Below are positions 10,059-47,562 of a stretch of 52,968 nucleotides of DNA, one piece after another; the stretch's first letter is position 1; each line of letters opens with the position of its first letter. The translations under genes and the position numbers were made by a program. A model generated the notes under the pieces. That model was not told the DNA's origin, ran no database searches, and saw only the letters and a list, made by a program, of their open reading frames with translations. This DNA is from Candidatus Dormiibacterota bacterium (lineage in GTDB: Bacteria > Chloroflexota > Dormibacteria > Dormibacterales > Dormibacteraceae), in NCBI GenBank assembly GCA_003151935.1, contig PLYZ01000060.1, forward strand, positions 64,625-117,592. The letters run 5' to 3'.

Positions 10059-12240
<2,182 letters not shown>

Positions 12241-12248
<8 letters not shown>

Positions 12249-37222: not shown

Positions 37223-37254
37223 CAATCCCCTTACGCCCGACCCGAGCGATAGAG

Positions 37255-37325
37255 GACGGGCCCCCGGGCTCTCTCAGAACCGGGCGTAAACCTCTCGGCT
37301 TACCCGGCTCCCACTACCCAAACCG
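37255..37325 (-). mobile_element. Possible group II intron relic
   Basis: Read leftward, GGGAGCCGGGTAAGCC, a GAGAGG loop and TTTACGCCCGGTTCTGAGAG form a hairpin that closely resembles a conserved element beside intron-encoded reverse transcriptases in bacterial group II introns. No reverse transcriptase or catalytic domain V was recognised in the window. Identification rests on memory of the element's shape. Confidence 0.35.
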
Positions 37326-38200: not shown

Positions 38201-38272
38201 TGGCGGGGATGGATGGGAATCGAACCCACCCAGGACGCCTCAGCAGCGCCCCGCAAACGGTTTTGAAGACCG
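38201..38272 (-). pseudogene. tRNA-Sec(UCA) 3' half, site C
   Basis: This second copy is nearly identical to the one at 32661. It has anticodon loop CTTCAAA, variable arm GGGCGC/GCGTCC with a 7-base loop, perfect T arm GTGGG-TTCGATT-CCCAT, acceptor strand CCATCCCC and encoded GCCA. As in site A there is no 5' half beyond the anticodon stem. The better pairing suggests a younger copy. Confidence 0.8.
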
Positions 38273-38396
38273 GAGGGCGCGAGTCCGCCACCGTCCATTA
38301 GGGTCCGGACAAAGTCGATCACAAGAGTCGGCGTTCCATCAGCGTCCGCTTTCGTCCATAGCCGTCCGCCAGCTTGGCTGTCATCTTGGCTGTCAG
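38258..38396. other. att-like site C: tRNA-Sec core plus 124-bp right arm
   Basis: The core CGGTTTTGAAGACCG is at 38258-38272. The 124-bp arm carries CGTCC motifs at spacings shared with sites A, B and D and ends in two TTGGCTGTC copies spaced 3 bp (38374-38382, 38386-38394) and AG. It forms the left edge of the 12.7-kb signalling block. Confidence 0.75.
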
Positions 38397-38530
38397 GTGC
38401 AGTGAAGTTGACGATAGTTCGGATTGTCGGGAGCCGATGATGAGTCTTTCCCGCGGATCAGGGGCGATTGCAGTTCAGGTCGTCGCCCAGGCGGTCAGAT
38501 TTCCGCTGCATATGGATAGAATCCAGCGCT

Positions 38531-38986
38531 ATGGATCAACCGGCGGCAGAGCGCGATTCGCTCATGAAGGCCATCAAGGTAGAGCTGAAACAGCAGCTCT
38601 GGACTGAATCACGGGCGCGGCCGACGTACGGGCGGTATCTCTCGTTATTCACTCTTAACCCCGAGCCCATGTGGGTCTACGACGTCGATACCCTTGAAAT
38701 CCTCGATGTCAACGAGGCGGCAACCCATAGATACGGGTACTCACGCGCCGAATTTCTCGCCCTGACCATCAAGTCCTTGCGACCAGCGGAAGACGTGCCA
38801 AAGTTCATGGAGCTACTCGCTGAGACCCCGAACTTCGATCGAAGCGGACCGTGGCGCCACCTGCTGAAGGGCGGGATGATCATCCAGGTTCTCATAACGT
38901 CGCACTCGGTCAAGTTCGGAGACCGAAATACGCGCTTAGTGATGGCCGAGAGTCTTACTCACGACCCCGACTTGGAGATCGAGTGA
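38531..38986 (+). CDS. Single PAS-domain protein
   Basis: The 151-residue protein is essentially one PAS domain (residues about 35-140): FTLNPEPMWVYDVDTLEILDVNEAA, then YGYSRAEFLAL and a PEDVPKFMEL-like segment. It lacks any output domain, so it may bind a small ligand and act on one of the nearby kinases. ATG 38531 was chosen; ATG 38564 (MKAIKVELK) is also possible and neither has a clear ribosome site. It is the first gene right of site C. Confidence 0.7.
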   Translation: MDQPAAERDSLMKAIKVELKQQLWTESRARPTYGRYLSLFTLNPEPMWVYDVDTLEILDVNEAATHRYGYSRAEFLALTIKSLRPAEDVPKFMELLAETPNFDRSGPWRHLLKGGMIIQVLITSHSVKFGDRNTRLVMAESLTHDPDLEIE

Positions 38987-40105: not shown

Positions 40106-41968
40106 ATGAGCCTGTCCCCAGGTGTCGCGCTCGGCCCCTACAGAATTCTTGAGCGTCTTGGCCGGGGCGGTATGGCTACCGTCTACAAGGCTCATCACCC
40201 GGCGCTCGATCGCTACGTCGCAATCAAGGTGCTGCCCGAGTTCTTCGCTGAAGATGACGCCTATCGCGATCGGTTTCAACAAGAGGCAAGATCGGTTGCT
40301 CGACTCAAACATCCCAACATTCTCAATGTCTTCGACTATGGTCAGACCGACGAAATCACATACCTCGTTTTGGAGTTGGTCGAAGGCGGAACTCTGGCTC
40401 AGATTCTCGGCAGCCCGATGGAACTCGAAGACGTTGTACGAATCTTGCGGCCTCTTGCAAGTGCCCTTGATCACGCTCACTCTCAGGGAATTCTTCACCG
40501 CGACATCAAGCCCTCCAACATCCTCATCCAGAAAGATGGGGCCCCGGTGCTTGCCGACTTCGGTCTAGCCAGAATGACAAGTTCCGTCCGGAGACTCACC
40601 GCCAGTGGCACCGTGATGGGCACTCCGGAATACATGTCACCTGAGCAGGTCGTCGGTGAGGCGATCGGCTCAACTTCCGACCTGTACTCGTTTGCGGTGG
40701 TGGCCTACGAGATGTTGACCGGGCGGGTTCCGTTTCAAGCCGATACACCAGCAGCCGTGCTGCTATCGCACATAAATAAGGACATGCCGCCGACTCGTGA
40801 GCTAGTCGGAGAGCTTTCCGCGCATGTCGAAGATGCCCTGCGGAAAGGGCTTGCCAAGGCGCCTGGCGACCGCTATGCAAACGCGAGTCAGTTCGTCGCG
40901 GCCCTCACGCCGGCAGCATGGCCGAGCCGAACCGACCTGTCGGCTCAAGACAGCGGATTGGCTCCGCAAGGACAGGGCGCAGCCGTCGGGAGCCTTCCCT
41001 TGGTTCTGGTTGTCGACGATGGCCTCGCCAACCGACAGCTAATCGAGGCTTACCTGGCGGACCTGGACTGCCAGGTCAAGTTGGCGGGGGACGGACCAAG
41101 TGCTCTCACGATCATTGAGTGTTCGCAGCCGAGCCTAGTGCTGCTCGATGTCCAAATGCCAGGGATCGACGGATATGAAGTCTGCCGGCAAATCAAGGCG
41201 CGGCCGCGAGGCCGGCTCTTGCCGGTGGTAATGATCACCTCGCTTGATCGAACAGAAGACCGGGTGAGGGCTCTGGAATCCGGAGCCGACGATTTCATGA
41301 CCAAGCCAGTGCAGAGAGTCGAGCTCGTGGCCCGGGTCAGGTCGGCACTCAGACTGAAGGCGGTTTACAACACCCTCGACAGTGCCGAGCACGTGATCTT
41401 CGCCTTGGCAGCAGCAGTCGAGGCAAAGGACCCGTACACGGGCAAACACACCCAGCGGGTTGCCGAATCCGCCCGCCAACTAGGAATGCGAATGGGACTC
41501 CCGGAGCCGGCATTGGAGGCCCTGTATCGCGGAGGCATCATCCATGACATCGGCAAGATTGGCGTGCCGGACGCAGTTCTGCTCAAGCCGGGTCCTCTTG
41601 ATCCCGAGGAGTCGGCACAAATGCGCGCGCACACTGTCATCGGCGAAGGTATCGTCAGCCCTTTACGGTCTGGCTTCAATCTCCTCCCGATCATCAGGCA
41701 TCACCACGAACACTTCGACGGCAATGGGTATCCCGATGGTCTGCGTGGGGCCGCGATCCCACGGCTCGCCCGAATTGTGGCTGTCTGCGATGCATATGAC
41801 GCCTTGGTTAACGACCGACCGTATCGAGAGCGCCGCACGGTGGCCGAAGCAATCGCGACCTTGAAGGAGGGTGCCGGCAAGCAATGGGATCCCGAGGTGG
41901 TTGGCCTGTTTACAAAAGAGATCGCTAACGGGCACGAGTCCCGGCCCGGTCTAGAGGCATTGTCTTAA
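40106..41968 (+). CDS. Ser/Thr protein kinase-REC-HD-GYP fusion
   Basis: The 620-residue protein joins three signalling modules. A Hanks-type kinase (residues 8-265) has glycine loop GRGGMATV at 19-26, Lys41 in VAIKVL, HRD at 131-133 and DFG at 151-153. A receiver domain (298-418) has Asp304/305, phospho-acceptor Asp348 in LLDVQMPG and Lys400. A complete HD-GYP phosphodiesterase (about 425-612) has H448, HD at 480-481 in IIHDIGK and GYP at 541-543. All catalytic residues appear present. It could link protein phosphorylation and two-component input to cyclic-di-GMP breakdown. No membrane helix is present, so it is cytosolic. RR and hybrid-kinase genes follow within 30 bp. Confidence 0.88.
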   Translation: MSLSPGVALGPYRILERLGRGGMATVYKAHHPALDRYVAIKVLPEFFAEDDAYRDRFQQEARSVARLKHPNILNVFDYGQTDEITYLVLELVEGGTLAQILGSPMELEDVVRILRPLASALDHAHSQGILHRDIKPSNILIQKDGAPVLADFGLARMTSSVRRLTASGTVMGTPEYMSPEQVVGEAIGSTSDLYSFAVVAYEMLTGRVPFQADTPAAVLLSHINKDMPPTRELVGELSAHVEDALRKGLAKAPGDRYANASQFVAALTPAAWPSRTDLSAQDSGLAPQGQGAAVGSLPLVLVVDDGLANRQLIEAYLADLDCQVKLAGDGPSALTIIECSQPSLVLLDVQMPGIDGYEVCRQIKARPRGRLLPVVMITSLDRTEDRVRALESGADDFMTKPVQRVELVARVRSALRLKAVYNTLDSAEHVIFALAAAVEAKDPYTGKHTQRVAESARQLGMRMGLPEPALEALYRGGIIHDIGKIGVPDAVLLKPGPLDPEESAQMRAHTVIGEGIVSPLRSGFNLLPIIRHHHEHFDGNGYPDGLRGAAIPRLARIVAVCDAYDALVNDRPYRERRTVAEAIATLKEGAGKQWDPEVVGLFTKEIANGHESRPGLEALS

Positions 41969-41996: not shown

Positions 41997-42416
41997 TTGA
42001 CCGCCCGCATCCTGATCGTTGACGACGAGCCAAGCAATGTCCTTCTTCTAGAGACGTTTCTGACTGACTCCGCCCACGAAATCCGCAGCCTCACTGACTC
42101 GCACCAGGTGGAGCAAGCTTTTGCAGAGTTCGACCCGGACATCGTCCTCTTGGACCTGCATATGCCAGAGCCTGATGGTCTGGAAATTCTGCGGCGCCTG
42201 CGTAGCGCTCGGGCGAGTTTAGGTTTCCTCCCGGTTGTCATGCTTACTGCCGACACGGGACGCGTCGCACGTAACAGCGCCCTCCTTCTGGGCGCGGATG
42301 ACTTCCTGACCAAGCCGCTCGACAGATCCGAGGTCGTGCTGCGAGTGCGCAACCTGTTGCGGACACGGAGGTTGTATCAGGAATTGGCAGAGTCGAAGGC
42401 GGCCAAGGACTCGTGA
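41997..42416 (+). CDS. Single-domain response regulator
   Basis: The 139-residue receiver protein starts at TTG 41997. It has Asp9/Asp10 in LIVDDEPSN, phospho-acceptor Asp53 in LLDLHMPEPDG, Thr in VVMLTAD and Lys106 in FLTKPL, with a short helical tail (LYQELAESKAAKDS). With no output domain it would relay phosphate or act by binding a partner. Its stop overlaps the next hybrid kinase start (GTGA), so it is translated together with its likely kinase. Confidence 0.85.
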   Translation: MTARILIVDDEPSNVLLLETFLTDSAHEIRSLTDSHQVEQAFAEFDPDIVLLDLHMPEPDGLEILRRLRSARASLGFLPVVMLTADTGRVARNSALLLGADDFLTKPLDRSEVVLRVRNLLRTRRLYQELAESKAAKDS

Positions 42417-44995
42417 AGCAGCTTGTTCAGGACTTGCAGGCCGCGGACGCGCTCGCGTTCGTTCTACTCGGCCTTGCAACGGCGGTGACTTGGCTTAGAC
42501 ATCGCGATCGCTCAATCGGCTGGGTTGCGCTTGCGATCGTCTTGTTATCGCTCGCCATTCTGCTGGGAAGCGCGCCCGCGCTGGCGGTCACGGCTTTCAT
42601 GGGCAGCGCGTATGCCCTTCTCCGCTACCGAGACGCGCTGATCCCGCTCCATCAGCGCTGGCACATGGTGGCCATAGTGTTCATGGTGGCAGCCGTGGGT
42701 TCGCTGCTCATAACCGACTTCCTGGTTCGTTCAGGTGCGACCCGGAACAGTCTGGTGATTGGGGCAGGGATCGCATTCGTCTTGGTGTGGGCAATCTCCA
42801 TCGTTGAGCCAATCGTCCGTTTCTGGCTTGTGTCTCGCCACTTGCCAGCAATACAGGCGTGGCGACTGCGGTCTCTGAGTTTTGGGTTTGGCGGACTGGT
42901 GGCAGTGGTGCTGTTAGCTGTCGTCACAGGCGCGTTCGCGACCAACCCATTGGTGCAGATCTTGCTTGGGTTGGTCGTTTTGGCAATCGTTCCGCTTCTC
43001 TATGTGAGCTTTTCGCCGCCATCTTGGCTTCGGCGCCAATGGCGCGCGACAGAGGAGGAAGCGCTACGCCAGGTCATGCAAGACTTACTGGGGCTCGAGG
43101 GCGATCGGGATACCGTTATTGACCGAGTTTTGGATTCCGCCGCCAGGCTTGTGGGCGCGAGTGCGGCAGTAGCAATCGATCCCATCGGTACACCAGTCGT
43201 CTCTCATGGCCTCGATCCTGCGGCCCTTACGGCACTTGGGGACCGCTTAGCAGCCACCGAATCTGGCCAGGGTTTTATTTTGGTCAACGGGTCCCAGCGT
43301 GCGACCATGACGTTCCCGCTTTCATTGATTGGCGGTCGAGCTACTCGCTTGGTGTTGATTGCGGGGGCCTTCACGCCAACCTTCGGACCAGATGAGTCGA
43401 GCCGGGCGAATCAAGTCGTAACGGCAATGGCAACCGCGATGGATCGTTTGAACGTGATTGACCGGTTAGAGGCAACCAATGTCCAGTTGATCGAGGCCAA
43501 CCGCCATAAGAGCTTGTTCCTGGCCAACATGAGCCACGAACTCAGGACGCCGCTCAATGCAATCCTGGGGTTCTCGGAGCTGCTCAGCGATGACACGACC
43601 GGGCGCTTTGACTCGGACACAAAACGCCGCTTCCTAAACCAGATCCACAGTAGCGGCGAGCATCTGCTTGGGCTAATCAACGACATTCTCGACCTGTCCA
43701 AGGTGGAAGCCGGCCAGATGGAGCTGCACAAAGAGCGCAATCACGTCAGAGAGATTCTTGAGGCTGTGCTGGCCACCATCGAGCCCTTGGCGCGGACTAA
43801 AGGCATTCGTGTTGAGAGCGAATCGGATGAACTCGACCTCGTTGCGGATGCGGCCAAGCTGAGGCAGATGCTCTTGAACCTCCTTTCCAATGCAATCAAG
43901 TTCACGCCAGCGGGCGGTCGCGTGTCCATCCGGGCACAAGCAGCCGGACCTTGGATCGATATTTCGGTCACCGATACAGGCATTGGGATCGCTAAGGCGG
44001 ACTTCGGCCGTCTCTTCAGCGAGTTCCAGCAGCTGGATGCCGGCCCGGGACGCGAACAGGAAGGAACCGGCCTCGGGCTCGCACTTACCAAACGTTTCGC
44101 CGAGTTGCATGGTGGACAGATAAGCGTGCAAAGCGAGCAGGGAAAAGGCAGCACCTTTGTCCTGCGATTGCCGGCGGAAACTGAACTATCGACCGTGGAG
44201 CCCGCCCACCCCCCACTCGCGATCCGATCCACCGACCCCACCCGGCCATTGATTCTCCTAGTCGAAGACAACCCGGAAGCCGCCGAGATTCTGGCTCGGC
44301 ATCTTGATGGGGGTGGATTCCGGATAGAGGTCGCTCGAACCGGAATCGAGGCCGTGGCAATGGCGCGTGAACTCAAGCCGGTCGCCATAACCCTTGACAT
44401 CCTCCTTCCGGAGATTGACGGTTGGGAAGTCCTCACCCGGCTGAAGGCCGACGAATTGACTCGCAATATCCCGGTGGTTGTAGTGACCGTCATCGACAAT
44501 CCCACGCTGGGTCGCGCATTGGGCGCTCTGGACTACTTCGTCAAACCGGTGGATAGTGGCGCCTTGCTCTCACGCTTGGGTGAGTACACATTTACCACCA
44601 AGGTCCAAACAGAGAACATCCGGGTGCTTGTAGTGGATGACGAACCCGCGAACCTGGATCTGCTTGGGGCCTTGTTGGAACCAGCCGGCTTCACTGTCCT
44701 GAGGGCCGCGGGCGGTGAGGAGGGAATCGATATGGCGAAATCCCAGATTCCTAATCTGATACTCCTCGACCTCATGATGCCGCGAGTCACAGGATTTGAT
44801 GTCGTCGAAGCTCTTCGGGCGGATGAAACCACCCGCCCCATACCGGTGATGGTGCTGACTGCCAAAGAACTCACTGTGGCTGACAAGCGGGCGCTCAATG
44901 GCCAGGTTGCGGCGATCTTTCAACGCCAGTCGGTTGCGGGTGCCGAGCTGGTGGCCTGGATTCGAGAACTCGTTGCTAAGAGGCGCCAATCATGA
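42413..44995 (+). CDS. Membrane hybrid histidine kinase with two receiver domains
   Basis: The 860-residue protein has six or seven N-terminal membrane helices (1-205), a GAF-like region (215-350), HisKA with His375 in NMSHELRTPLNAIL, an ATPase domain (about 475-590, NLLSNAIKFT, DTGIGI, GTGLGLAL) and two receivers (612-730 and 736-855). Receiver 1 has the full acid/Asp/Lys set (VEDN, LDILLP, FVKPV). Receiver 2 has DD and LLDLMMP but AIFQRQS where a Lys is expected, so phosphate handling may differ. GTG 42413 overlaps the RR stop. It is the central sensor of the island. Confidence 0.87.
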   Translation: MKQLVQDLQAADALAFVLLGLATAVTWLRHRDRSIGWVALAIVLLSLAILLGSAPALAVTAFMGSAYALLRYRDALIPLHQRWHMVAIVFMVAAVGSLLITDFLVRSGATRNSLVIGAGIAFVLVWAISIVEPIVRFWLVSRHLPAIQAWRLRSLSFGFGGLVAVVLLAVVTGAFATNPLVQILLGLVVLAIVPLLYVSFSPPSWLRRQWRATEEEALRQVMQDLLGLEGDRDTVIDRVLDSAARLVGASAAVAIDPIGTPVVSHGLDPAALTALGDRLAATESGQGFILVNGSQRATMTFPLSLIGGRATRLVLIAGAFTPTFGPDESSRANQVVTAMATAMDRLNVIDRLEATNVQLIEANRHKSLFLANMSHELRTPLNAILGFSELLSDDTTGRFDSDTKRRFLNQIHSSGEHLLGLINDILDLSKVEAGQMELHKERNHVREILEAVLATIEPLARTKGIRVESESDELDLVADAAKLRQMLLNLLSNAIKFTPAGGRVSIRAQAAGPWIDISVTDTGIGIAKADFGRLFSEFQQLDAGPGREQEGTGLGLALTKRFAELHGGQISVQSEQGKGSTFVLRLPAETELSTVEPAHPPLAIRSTDPTRPLILLVEDNPEAAEILARHLDGGGFRIEVARTGIEAVAMARELKPVAITLDILLPEIDGWEVLTRLKADELTRNIPVVVVTVIDNPTLGRALGALDYFVKPVDSGALLSRLGEYTFTTKVQTENIRVLVVDDEPANLDLLGALLEPAGFTVLRAAGGEEGIDMAKSQIPNLILLDLMMPRVTGFDVVEALRADETTRPIPVMVLTAKELTVADKRALNGQVAAIFQRQSVAGAELVAWIRELVAKRRQS

Positions 44996-45384
44996 GAATC
45001 GAATCAATCCAAACGCGGGTGATACTCGCGGTTGAAGACAATGAAGCAAACCGGATTCTGATTCAGGCTGTTCTTGAGAGACTTGGACACGTGGTGTTGC
45101 TGGCTGGCTCGGCCAGCGAAGCGATTTCCAGAATTGAACACCGGCGTCCGGATCTCATCCTGATGGACATCCAGCTTCCAGGTCAGGATGGCCTCGCACT
45201 GACACGGCGACTCAAGGCGGATCCAGAATTTGCCCCGATTCCCGTGGTAGCGATTACGGCGCACGCGATGGCGAGTGATCGCCAGGACTGTTTGGATGCC
45301 GGCTGTGCAGGCTACATCGCCAAGCCATTTAATACACGGACCTTAGGTGCACAAATCCAGGAATTTCTCCAACCGGCTTCGTAG
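44992..45384 (+). CDS. Single-domain response regulator (CheY/DivK-like)
   Basis: The 130-residue protein has AVEDNEANRILI (acidic pair), LILMDIQLPGQDG with the phospho-acceptor Asp, VVAITAHAM and YIAKPF, the pattern of DivK-like receivers that follow hybrid kinases. It overlaps the kinase stop by ATGA. It probably accepts phosphate from the hybrid kinase encoded upstream. The 123 bp after it contain no other gene. Confidence 0.87.
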   Translation: MRIESIQTRVILAVEDNEANRILIQAVLERLGHVVLLAGSASEAISRIEHRRPDLILMDIQLPGQDGLALTRRLKADPEFAPIPVVAITAHAMASDRQDCLDAGCAGYIAKPFNTRTLGAQIQEFLQPAS

Positions 45385-45507: not shown

Positions 45508-47562
45508 TTGACGACACCTATACGCAGGGGCCGACAACGGACCGCGGCTCGGCGAGAGCGAGAGCGTGAGCATCTCGAGGCACTTCACGAAGTGGCGGTT
45601 TCCTCGAGCGGTCTCCTAGACCCCTCGACGCTCGGCCGCCTTGTAGTCGATCGAGCTCGTATTTTGCTAGGGGGCGATGACGCCACGCTGCTGTGGTGGG
45701 ACCCAGCAGTGAATGGGCTGCGCGTGTTGGCCGATACCTTTCTGCGGCCGTTCCCAAGGATTGTGGCAGTCGGAGAGGGCACTGCCGGAATCGCCTTCGA
45801 GCGTGGCGAACAGGTGCTTGTCGAGGATTACCCGGGCTGGAAGTACGCCGTCCCCGACGCCTTGGCGCGCGGAATGAAAAGCGTGATAGCGATGCCTCTC
45901 CTGGTCCAGGCGAGGCCTGTTGGCGCCCTCACGTTGTCGTTCACAACACCGCGCCGATTCGAGGCCGAGGATCTAAGACTCCTGTCACTTCTGGCGGCTC
46001 AAGTCGCGCCCGCGCTCGAGGCAGCCAGGCTCCACGATGCGGTGCTGCAAATCAGCTCCGAGCTGCGGGAGGCAAGCGCAGCCAAGAGCAAGTTCCTCGC
46101 CAACATGAGTCACGAATTGCGAACCCCGCTAAATGCAATTCTTGGGTTCGCAGAGTTGCTCATCGACGAGCCTCAAGGCGATTATGAGGCTGACCGCCGA
46201 AAGCAGTTCCTCGAACAAATCTATAAGAGCGGCAAGCACCTGCTCGATCTCATCAACGACATCCTCGACCTGGCGAAGGTGGAAGCCGGTCAGATGGACC
46301 TGAGACGATTGGCTTTCAGTCTCCGGGGCGTGGTTCGCTCTGCTATCGATACGGTGCAGCCGTTGGCCGCGGCAAAGAAGCTCAGCTTGATTGTTGAGCA
46401 GACCGCCGACACGGCCCTGTTCGCTGATCAGGGCAAGGTGAGCCAGATGCTCCTGAACCTGCTCTCCAATGCCATCAAATTCACGCCCGAAGGCGGCCGG
46501 ATCACTGTCGCGGTCGCAGAACTCGACAACGAAGTCCGCCTTTCAGTTGCAGACACCGGGATAGGCATTACCGCCGCTGACCAGGAGAAATTGTTTGTCG
46601 AGTTCCAGCAGGTTGGTGAACGGCCTTCCGGCGAGCAGCAGGGCACTGGACTTGGCCTGGCTCTGACCAGGCGATTGGCCGAACTCCACGGAGGGAGGGT
46701 ATGGGTTGAGAGTGAGCCAGGCGCGGGGAGCCGCTTTTACATCGCGTTGCCTCTGAAGAGTCAGTCTGATGCGCTTCTCGAAGCGGATGCCGTGGCTACA
46801 CGAGAGTCAGACGGCCCACTCGTAATGGTCGTGGAGGACCAGAACAGCGCGGCAGCCCTGCTGTCGATCACTTTGCGGCGGGCCGGCTACCAGGTGAAGG
46901 TTGTGCGGAGCGGCGCCGATGTCTTGGAGAGCGCGGTTCGGCTCCGCCCAGACGCCATCACGCTCGACATCCTGTTACCAGGTGTCGACGGTTGGGAGAT
47001 CCTCCGCTCCCTGAAAGAGTCGCCGGAGACAAGAAACATTCCGGTCGTCGTTGTGTTTGTGCTCGATGACCGCTCGTTGGGCTTCGCTCTGGGCGCAGAC
47101 GACTACCTGGTGAAGCCGGCCCCGAGAGAGAAGCTCTTGGAGTTCGTAACCCGCCACACCTTAGTTAGAAAGCACGGCGAGCGCGCGGTCAGAATCCTCG
47201 CTGTCGATGACGACGCGGTTGCGCTCCAACTCTTGAGGGATAGCTTGGCTCCACAGTTCACCTTGCTAACTGCTGAGGATGGGGTTACTGGCATCGATAT
47301 GGCGCGATCTGAGCGCCCAGACGCGGTCATCCTTGATCTCCTGATGCCGATGATGAGCGGCTTTGAGGTAGCCGCGGCCCTCAAGTCAGATCCGAATACG
47401 CGAGACATTCCAATCCTGATTCTCACCGCCAAAAATCTGACCGTTGACGACAAGGCACAGCTGAACGGAAATGTGAACAGAGTCATGCAAAAGGGTCAGG
47501 CCGGAGCATCCGAACTCTTGACCTGGCTGAAGCGGCAGCCGGCCCGCCACCAGGGCTCATGA
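45508..47562 (+). CDS. GAF hybrid histidine kinase with two receiver domains
   Basis: The 684-residue cytosolic kinase has a GAF domain (about 25-175, with VAVGEGTAGIAFERGEQVL and SVIAMPLLVQARPVGALTL), HisKA with His202 in NMSHELRTPLNAIL, an ATPase domain (300-415) and two receivers (436-550 and 560-675). Receiver 1 has VVEDQN, LDILLPGVDG and LVKPA; receiver 2 has VDDDA, LDLLMP and a Lys in VMQKG. Its kinase and receiver layout closely resembles the membrane kinase upstream, pointing to an old duplication with a swapped sensor. The start is TTG 45508, 9 bases after AGGAGG. Confidence 0.87.
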   Translation: MTTPIRRGRQRTAARREREREHLEALHEVAVSSSGLLDPSTLGRLVVDRARILLGGDDATLLWWDPAVNGLRVLADTFLRPFPRIVAVGEGTAGIAFERGEQVLVEDYPGWKYAVPDALARGMKSVIAMPLLVQARPVGALTLSFTTPRRFEAEDLRLLSLLAAQVAPALEAARLHDAVLQISSELREASAAKSKFLANMSHELRTPLNAILGFAELLIDEPQGDYEADRRKQFLEQIYKSGKHLLDLINDILDLAKVEAGQMDLRRLAFSLRGVVRSAIDTVQPLAAAKKLSLIVEQTADTALFADQGKVSQMLLNLLSNAIKFTPEGGRITVAVAELDNEVRLSVADTGIGITAADQEKLFVEFQQVGERPSGEQQGTGLGLALTRRLAELHGGRVWVESEPGAGSRFYIALPLKSQSDALLEADAVATRESDGPLVMVVEDQNSAAALLSITLRRAGYQVKVVRSGADVLESAVRLRPDAITLDILLPGVDGWEILRSLKESPETRNIPVVVVFVLDDRSLGFALGADDYLVKPAPREKLLEFVTRHTLVRKHGERAVRILAVDDDAVALQLLRDSLAPQFTLLTAEDGVTGIDMARSERPDAVILDLLMPMMSGFEVAAALKSDPNTRDIPILILTAKNLTVDDKAQLNGNVNRVMQKGQAGASELLTWLKRQPARHQGS

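Follow-up and report, generated by a model that had tools for sequence, protein, structure and literature searches.

The gene at positions 40106-41968 (+ strand) of the DNA analyzed here, a stretch of 52,968 nucleotides (the window) from a 2.94-Mb Chloroflexota genome, joins a Ser/Thr kinase, a receiver and an HD-GYP phosphodiesterase in a single protein that has full-length orthologues. Sequence comparisons indicate that this fusion is a response regulator of the RpfG type that was extended N-terminally by a soluble, PknB-like Ser/Thr kinase, and that the architecture is recurrent, having arisen at least twice.

Three conserved signaling domains in one reading frame

The original prediction had placed the three domains in one protein, and this is borne out by a 620-aa frame that runs from ATG to stop without an internal stop codon (ORF translation) and carries three Pfam matches, all far over their cut-offs: from N- to C-terminus, Pkinase at residues 12-258 (40139-40879; 6e-50), Response_reg at residues 300-412 (41003-41341; 5.9e-28) and HD_5 at residues 435-598 (41408-41899; 3.9e-36), all on the + strand. 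The residues that had been named as catalytic (K41, D133 and D151; D348 and K400; H480-D481 and GYP541-543) are present at exactly those positions. Colinear orthologues in assemblies made independently exclude the objection raised with the prediction, a hidden frame error joining separate genes, and their occurrence in many genomes likewise rules out an assembly chimera.

The kinase matches PF00069 with 170.5 bits against a cut-off of 31.7 and has the invariant K41, D133 and D151 of Hanks-type Ser/Thr kinases, within an HRD at 131-133 and a DFG at 151-153, together with E60, N138 and the activation-loop residue T165. Its closest solved structures are PknB, PknE and PknA of Mycobacterium (about 36% identity), with which it shares its catalytic motifs; T165, invariant in 20 sequences, aligns with the first member of the Thr pair in the activation loop of PknB, which we take to be T171 in PknB numbering. 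It differs from these kinases in having no PASTA sensor domains (Pfam) and in sharing its chain with a receiver and a phosphodiesterase. The receiver (PF00072) has the acid pair D304-D305, the phospho-acceptor D348, T378 and K400, all invariant in the same 20 sequences. The HD-GYP domain, with its HD, HHE and GYP motifs, adds D442, H448, K484, H509, H533-H534 and D562; across 20 distinct full-length sequences the catalytic and phospho-acceptor sites of the protein are invariant except for D442, which is E in one. Alignment to PmGH (4mcw) predicts H448, H480, D481, H509, H533, H534 and D562 as metal ligands and places Y444 at the position of the PmGH ligand E185. Bellini et al. predicted a binuclear center for the Y/F subgroup of HD-GYP proteins (PMC4159591), and from Y444 a metal site of this type is predicted here. 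All three active sites thus look intact, and the joining of three signaling modules that had been proposed is real and conserved.

Over nine orthologue pairs, dN/dS was 0.06-0.16 for the kinase, 0.03-0.12 for the receiver and 0.04-0.14 for HD-GYP, indicating that all three modules are kept by purifying selection, while values for the linker between kinase and receiver were mostly above those of the domains. A dead kinase is ruled out by the intact residues together with the low dN/dS. The linker (residues 259-299; 40880-41002, +) is weakly conserved, 38-44 aa long in orthologues and predicted to be disordered at 271-294. In an AlphaFold2 model (mean pLDDT 86.4, pTM 0.50) the linker and the activation loop are disordered, and an unbroken helix (residues 404-441; 41315-41428, +; 25 of 38 positions invariant) runs from the last helix of the receiver into HD-GYP, less confidently around 421-440 (pLDDT 62-76). 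The continuous helix and the disordered linker lead to the prediction that receiver and HD-GYP are mechanically coupled and that the kinase is tethered. A Foldseek search gave matches to the kinase domain only, among the 50 matches listed, and so was uninformative about domain arrangement.

A conserved operon with a hybrid histidine kinase

At most full-length orthologous loci the fusion gene, usually the first of a conserved operon, lies only a few bases from the hybrid histidine kinase gene downstream of it, after which comes a single-domain receiver gene. The corresponding genes of the window lie at 42413-44995 (+), encoding a hybrid histidine kinase with a hydrophobic N-terminus, HisKA, HATPase and two receivers, and at 44992-45384 (+), encoding the receiver that is the third member of the cassette. 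The locus is unlike its orthologues in two respects: a single-domain receiver gene (41997-42416, +), not seen between the fusion and histidine kinase genes in orthologous loci, is inserted there, and a second, co-directional hybrid kinase gene (45508-47562, +; GAF-HisKA-HATPase-REC-REC), not seen in orthologous cassettes, lies downstream. The histidine kinase at 42413-44995 is also divergent (50-56% identity) and is the likely phosphodonor for the receiver of the fusion.

RpfG, too, has a hybrid histidine kinase encoded next door. With RpfG and PA4781-type response regulators the fusion further shares the REC-HD-GYP core and an intact metal site; it differs from them in that a Hanks kinase on a flexible linker has been added at the N-terminus, so that the receiver is internal rather than N-terminal and HD-GYP is not the sole catalytic domain on the chain. 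Because of this extra domain we class the fusion as a variant of the RpfG type rather than as a plain member.

Operons of the same family that have no kinase domain (e.g., L117, L119 and L121) encode a REC-HD-GYP protein about 75% identical to that of the fusion, followed in unchanged order by a homologous hybrid kinase of the same type and a receiver. Since these sister operons carry plain REC-HD-GYP in the same slot, REC-HD-GYP together with the hybrid kinase is the core, to which the Ser/Thr kinase has been added. The genes upstream differ: a PAS-GAF-GAF-LuxR regulator at the three fusion loci checked versus an HTH-TPR regulator at the two kinase-free operons checked. Upstream of the operon in the window is a short PAS-domain ORF (38468-38986, +; 172 aa), which could be a remnant of the PAS-GAF-GAF-LuxR regulator or an unrelated gene. 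Kinase decay was considered for the stops upstream of three kinase-free paralogues (G033, G016 and G026) and rejected, as the REC-HD-GYP genes at these places are ordinary and stand alone; a kinase frame was not detected next to any of them.

Distribution and origins of the architecture

A protein search covering 42 genomes from the Chloroflexota family to which the window belongs (E<=1e-165) matched the fusion at 23 places in 22 genomes, belonging to 4 of 14 genera. Kinase and receiver are covered in all 22 genomes and most matches reach through HD-GYP; 20 of the 23 extend across all three domains, ending no earlier than residue 604, and the other three are truncated. The fusion is present in all listed genomes of genus g9; genera g1, g2 and g3 have it in part of their genomes, the two other g1 genomes being without it. 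Outside the family, no full-length match was found in a sample of 400 Chloroflexota genomes (E<=1e-90, top three candidates per genome scored).

The expectation that the architecture is rare therefore holds within Chloroflexota, where it is confined to one family in this sample, and fails for Gemmataceae, where it is common: of the 95 genomes searched, 69 matched at E<=1e-85, and in about 64, an approximate count based on best E-values of about 1e-150 or lower, the match is long enough to run from kinase to HD-GYP. At four planctomycete loci a single frame contains the three Pfam domains; in a sample of the phylum, with two candidates scored per genome, the query genome was the sole match. The Gemmataceae proteins (about 700-850 aa) have the same domain order as the Chloroflexota fusion but about 100-160 extra residues N-terminal to the kinase in the open frames examined, and the receiver and HD motifs are degenerate in some members. 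In two of these, L030 and L041 (Fimbriiglobus), the kinase is intact, whereas the receiver acid pair and the HD motif (H to Y/F, K to L) are degenerate, and their HD-GYP domains are likely to be catalytically dead.

In a kinase-domain tree all Chloroflexota fusions form one clade (support 100/99), which adjoins other kinases of the same phylum and lies far from the planctomycete fusions. In the REC-HD-GYP tree they are mixed with kinase-free paralogues of the family, requiring three changes, although their grouping in one clade is not rejected (p-AU 0.27). The receiver-HD-GYP half of the window's protein is closer to kinase-free paralogues than to other fusions, which counts against the explanation that we prefer below. 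The simplest reading of the two trees for Chloroflexota would be a single fusion event, after which the kinase was lost or the REC-HD-GYP half exchanged. A REC-HD-GYP clade shared by Chloroflexota and planctomycete fusions is rejected (p-AU 5.65e-05), and this together with the separate kinase clades rules out a common origin with the Gemmataceae fusions, both halves of which are of separate origin; the architecture thus arose at least twice. That it appeared separately in Gemmataceae suggests that the combination is useful.

It had also been asked whether many identical architectures were already characterized. The architecture does recur, but no characterized Pkinase-REC-HD-GYP protein was found in the open-access literature searched, and the main text of a survey of Planctomycetota kinases (PMC11032199) makes no mention of HD-GYP. 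The fusion is no isolated curiosity: it is conserved, a variant of the RpfG kind, and uncharacterized in that literature.

A proposed two-output model and its alternatives

The explanation that we prefer, while giving it slightly less than an even chance, is that one histidine kinase signal operates both an HD-GYP switch and, as a second output, a flexibly tethered Ser/Thr kinase. The adjacent membrane-anchored hybrid histidine kinase would phosphorylate D348 of the receiver, which would reorient or dimerize the protein; the unbroken helix would pass this change on and open the HD-GYP site for cyclic-di-GMP hydrolysis. The kinase, on its tether of roughly 40 aa, would be activated probably in trans, as receiver-driven dimerization would pair two kinases for trans-autophosphorylation at T165. 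A single signal would in this way lower cyclic-di-GMP and turn on Ser/Thr phosphorylation of other proteins. The enzymatic activities, the direction of the signal, the coupling by dimerization, the kinase step and the substrates are what we infer here. There is precedent in PA4781, a REC-HD-GYP protein whose receiver masks the active site while unphosphorylated and which is activated by phosphorylation (PMC3774798), and eight GGDEF domains are encoded in the window's genome, so that cyclic-di-GMP is probably made in this organism; on these two grounds the route from hybrid kinase through D348 to HD-GYP would be the core pathway. Two fusion loci count against this explanation: at L095/L011 only a receiver is present and no hybrid kinase was detected adjacent, and at L116/L135 none was detected within the stretch covered.

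The sequence does not reveal the order of events, and the kinase might act on the receiver or the HD-GYP domain of its own chain instead. This main rival, which we consider rather unlikely, makes the kinase an input that phosphorylates Ser/Thr residues on the receiver, linker or HD-GYP domain, in cis or in trans, and thereby gates the phosphodiesterase, so that cyclic-di-GMP hydrolysis would be controlled by this kinase as well as by the histidine kinase. The kinase does lie N-terminal to the receiver, the usual place of input domains, kinase-free paralogues retain an otherwise similar REC-HD-GYP, and several Ser/Thr residues outside the kinase are conserved (T399, S413, T445 and S522). However, most conserved Ser/Thr residues of the receiver and HD-GYP are in or beside functional motifs, so that phosphorylation is unnecessary as an explanation, the linker has no conserved Ser/Thr in 20 aligned sequences, and no preferred kinase-receiver interface is predicted, given the low pTM and the disordered linker.

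It is improbable that the two effectors are merely co-expressed on one chain and act independently, without regulatory coupling. The flexible, fast-evolving linker is compatible with such an arrangement, as is the existence in the same family of standalone REC-HD-GYP paralogues and of kinases of other architecture; nevertheless, the fusion persists in every g9 genome searched and in some of the three other genera, its active sites are under purifying selection, and the same domain order has a second, separate origin in Gemmataceae.

For HD-GYP proteins a preference for pGpG or cGAMP is also possible, which, like the PDB match named below, counts against the two-output explanation. We give little credence to a fusion without cyclic-di-GMP control, its HD-GYP being mainly a protein-interaction module or a pGpG/cGAMP hydrolase (a reading compatible with the kinase as input or as output), for although the best PDB sequence match is a 3'3'-cGAMP phosphodiesterase, Y444 replaces the bridging Glu of PmGH as in the predicted binuclear subgroup, and the degenerate HD motifs of some Gemmataceae fusions imply that catalysis is dispensable in some such proteins, no aligned Chloroflexota orthologue has lost any of the HD, HH, K and GYP residues and the genome encodes its GGDEF domains.

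The two-output explanation can be extended, speculatively, to an uncharacterized class of response regulators in which one His-Asp signal has two outputs on one chain, a Ser/Thr kinase acting via receiver-mediated dimerization and the breakdown of cyclic-di-GMP, and which Chloroflexota and Gemmataceae would have reached independently; we regard this as possible but doubtful. Two-component, Ser/Thr kinase and cyclic-di-GMP signaling are usually studied as separate layers, and the fusion protein holds all three. With its defined operon, a likely histidine kinase partner and natural kinase-free sister operons as controls, it offers a direct route to how these layers are wired.

Other features of the window

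A 729-aa ORF without a Pfam match (10059-12248, -) adjoins a GH3 glycosidase gene and an oligopeptide-type ABC transporter cluster. Upstream of the fusion operon are a match to group II intron domain V (37249-37312, -; RF00029, 47.5 bits) and a tRNA-Sec candidate with a UCA anticodon (38205-38297, -; ARAGORN). The latter scores 36.9 bits in Rfam (E 2.9e-05), under the gathering score of 47, and is probably a selenocysteine tRNA; the genome also encodes SelA (E 4.7e-121), and together these suggest that it may use selenocysteine.
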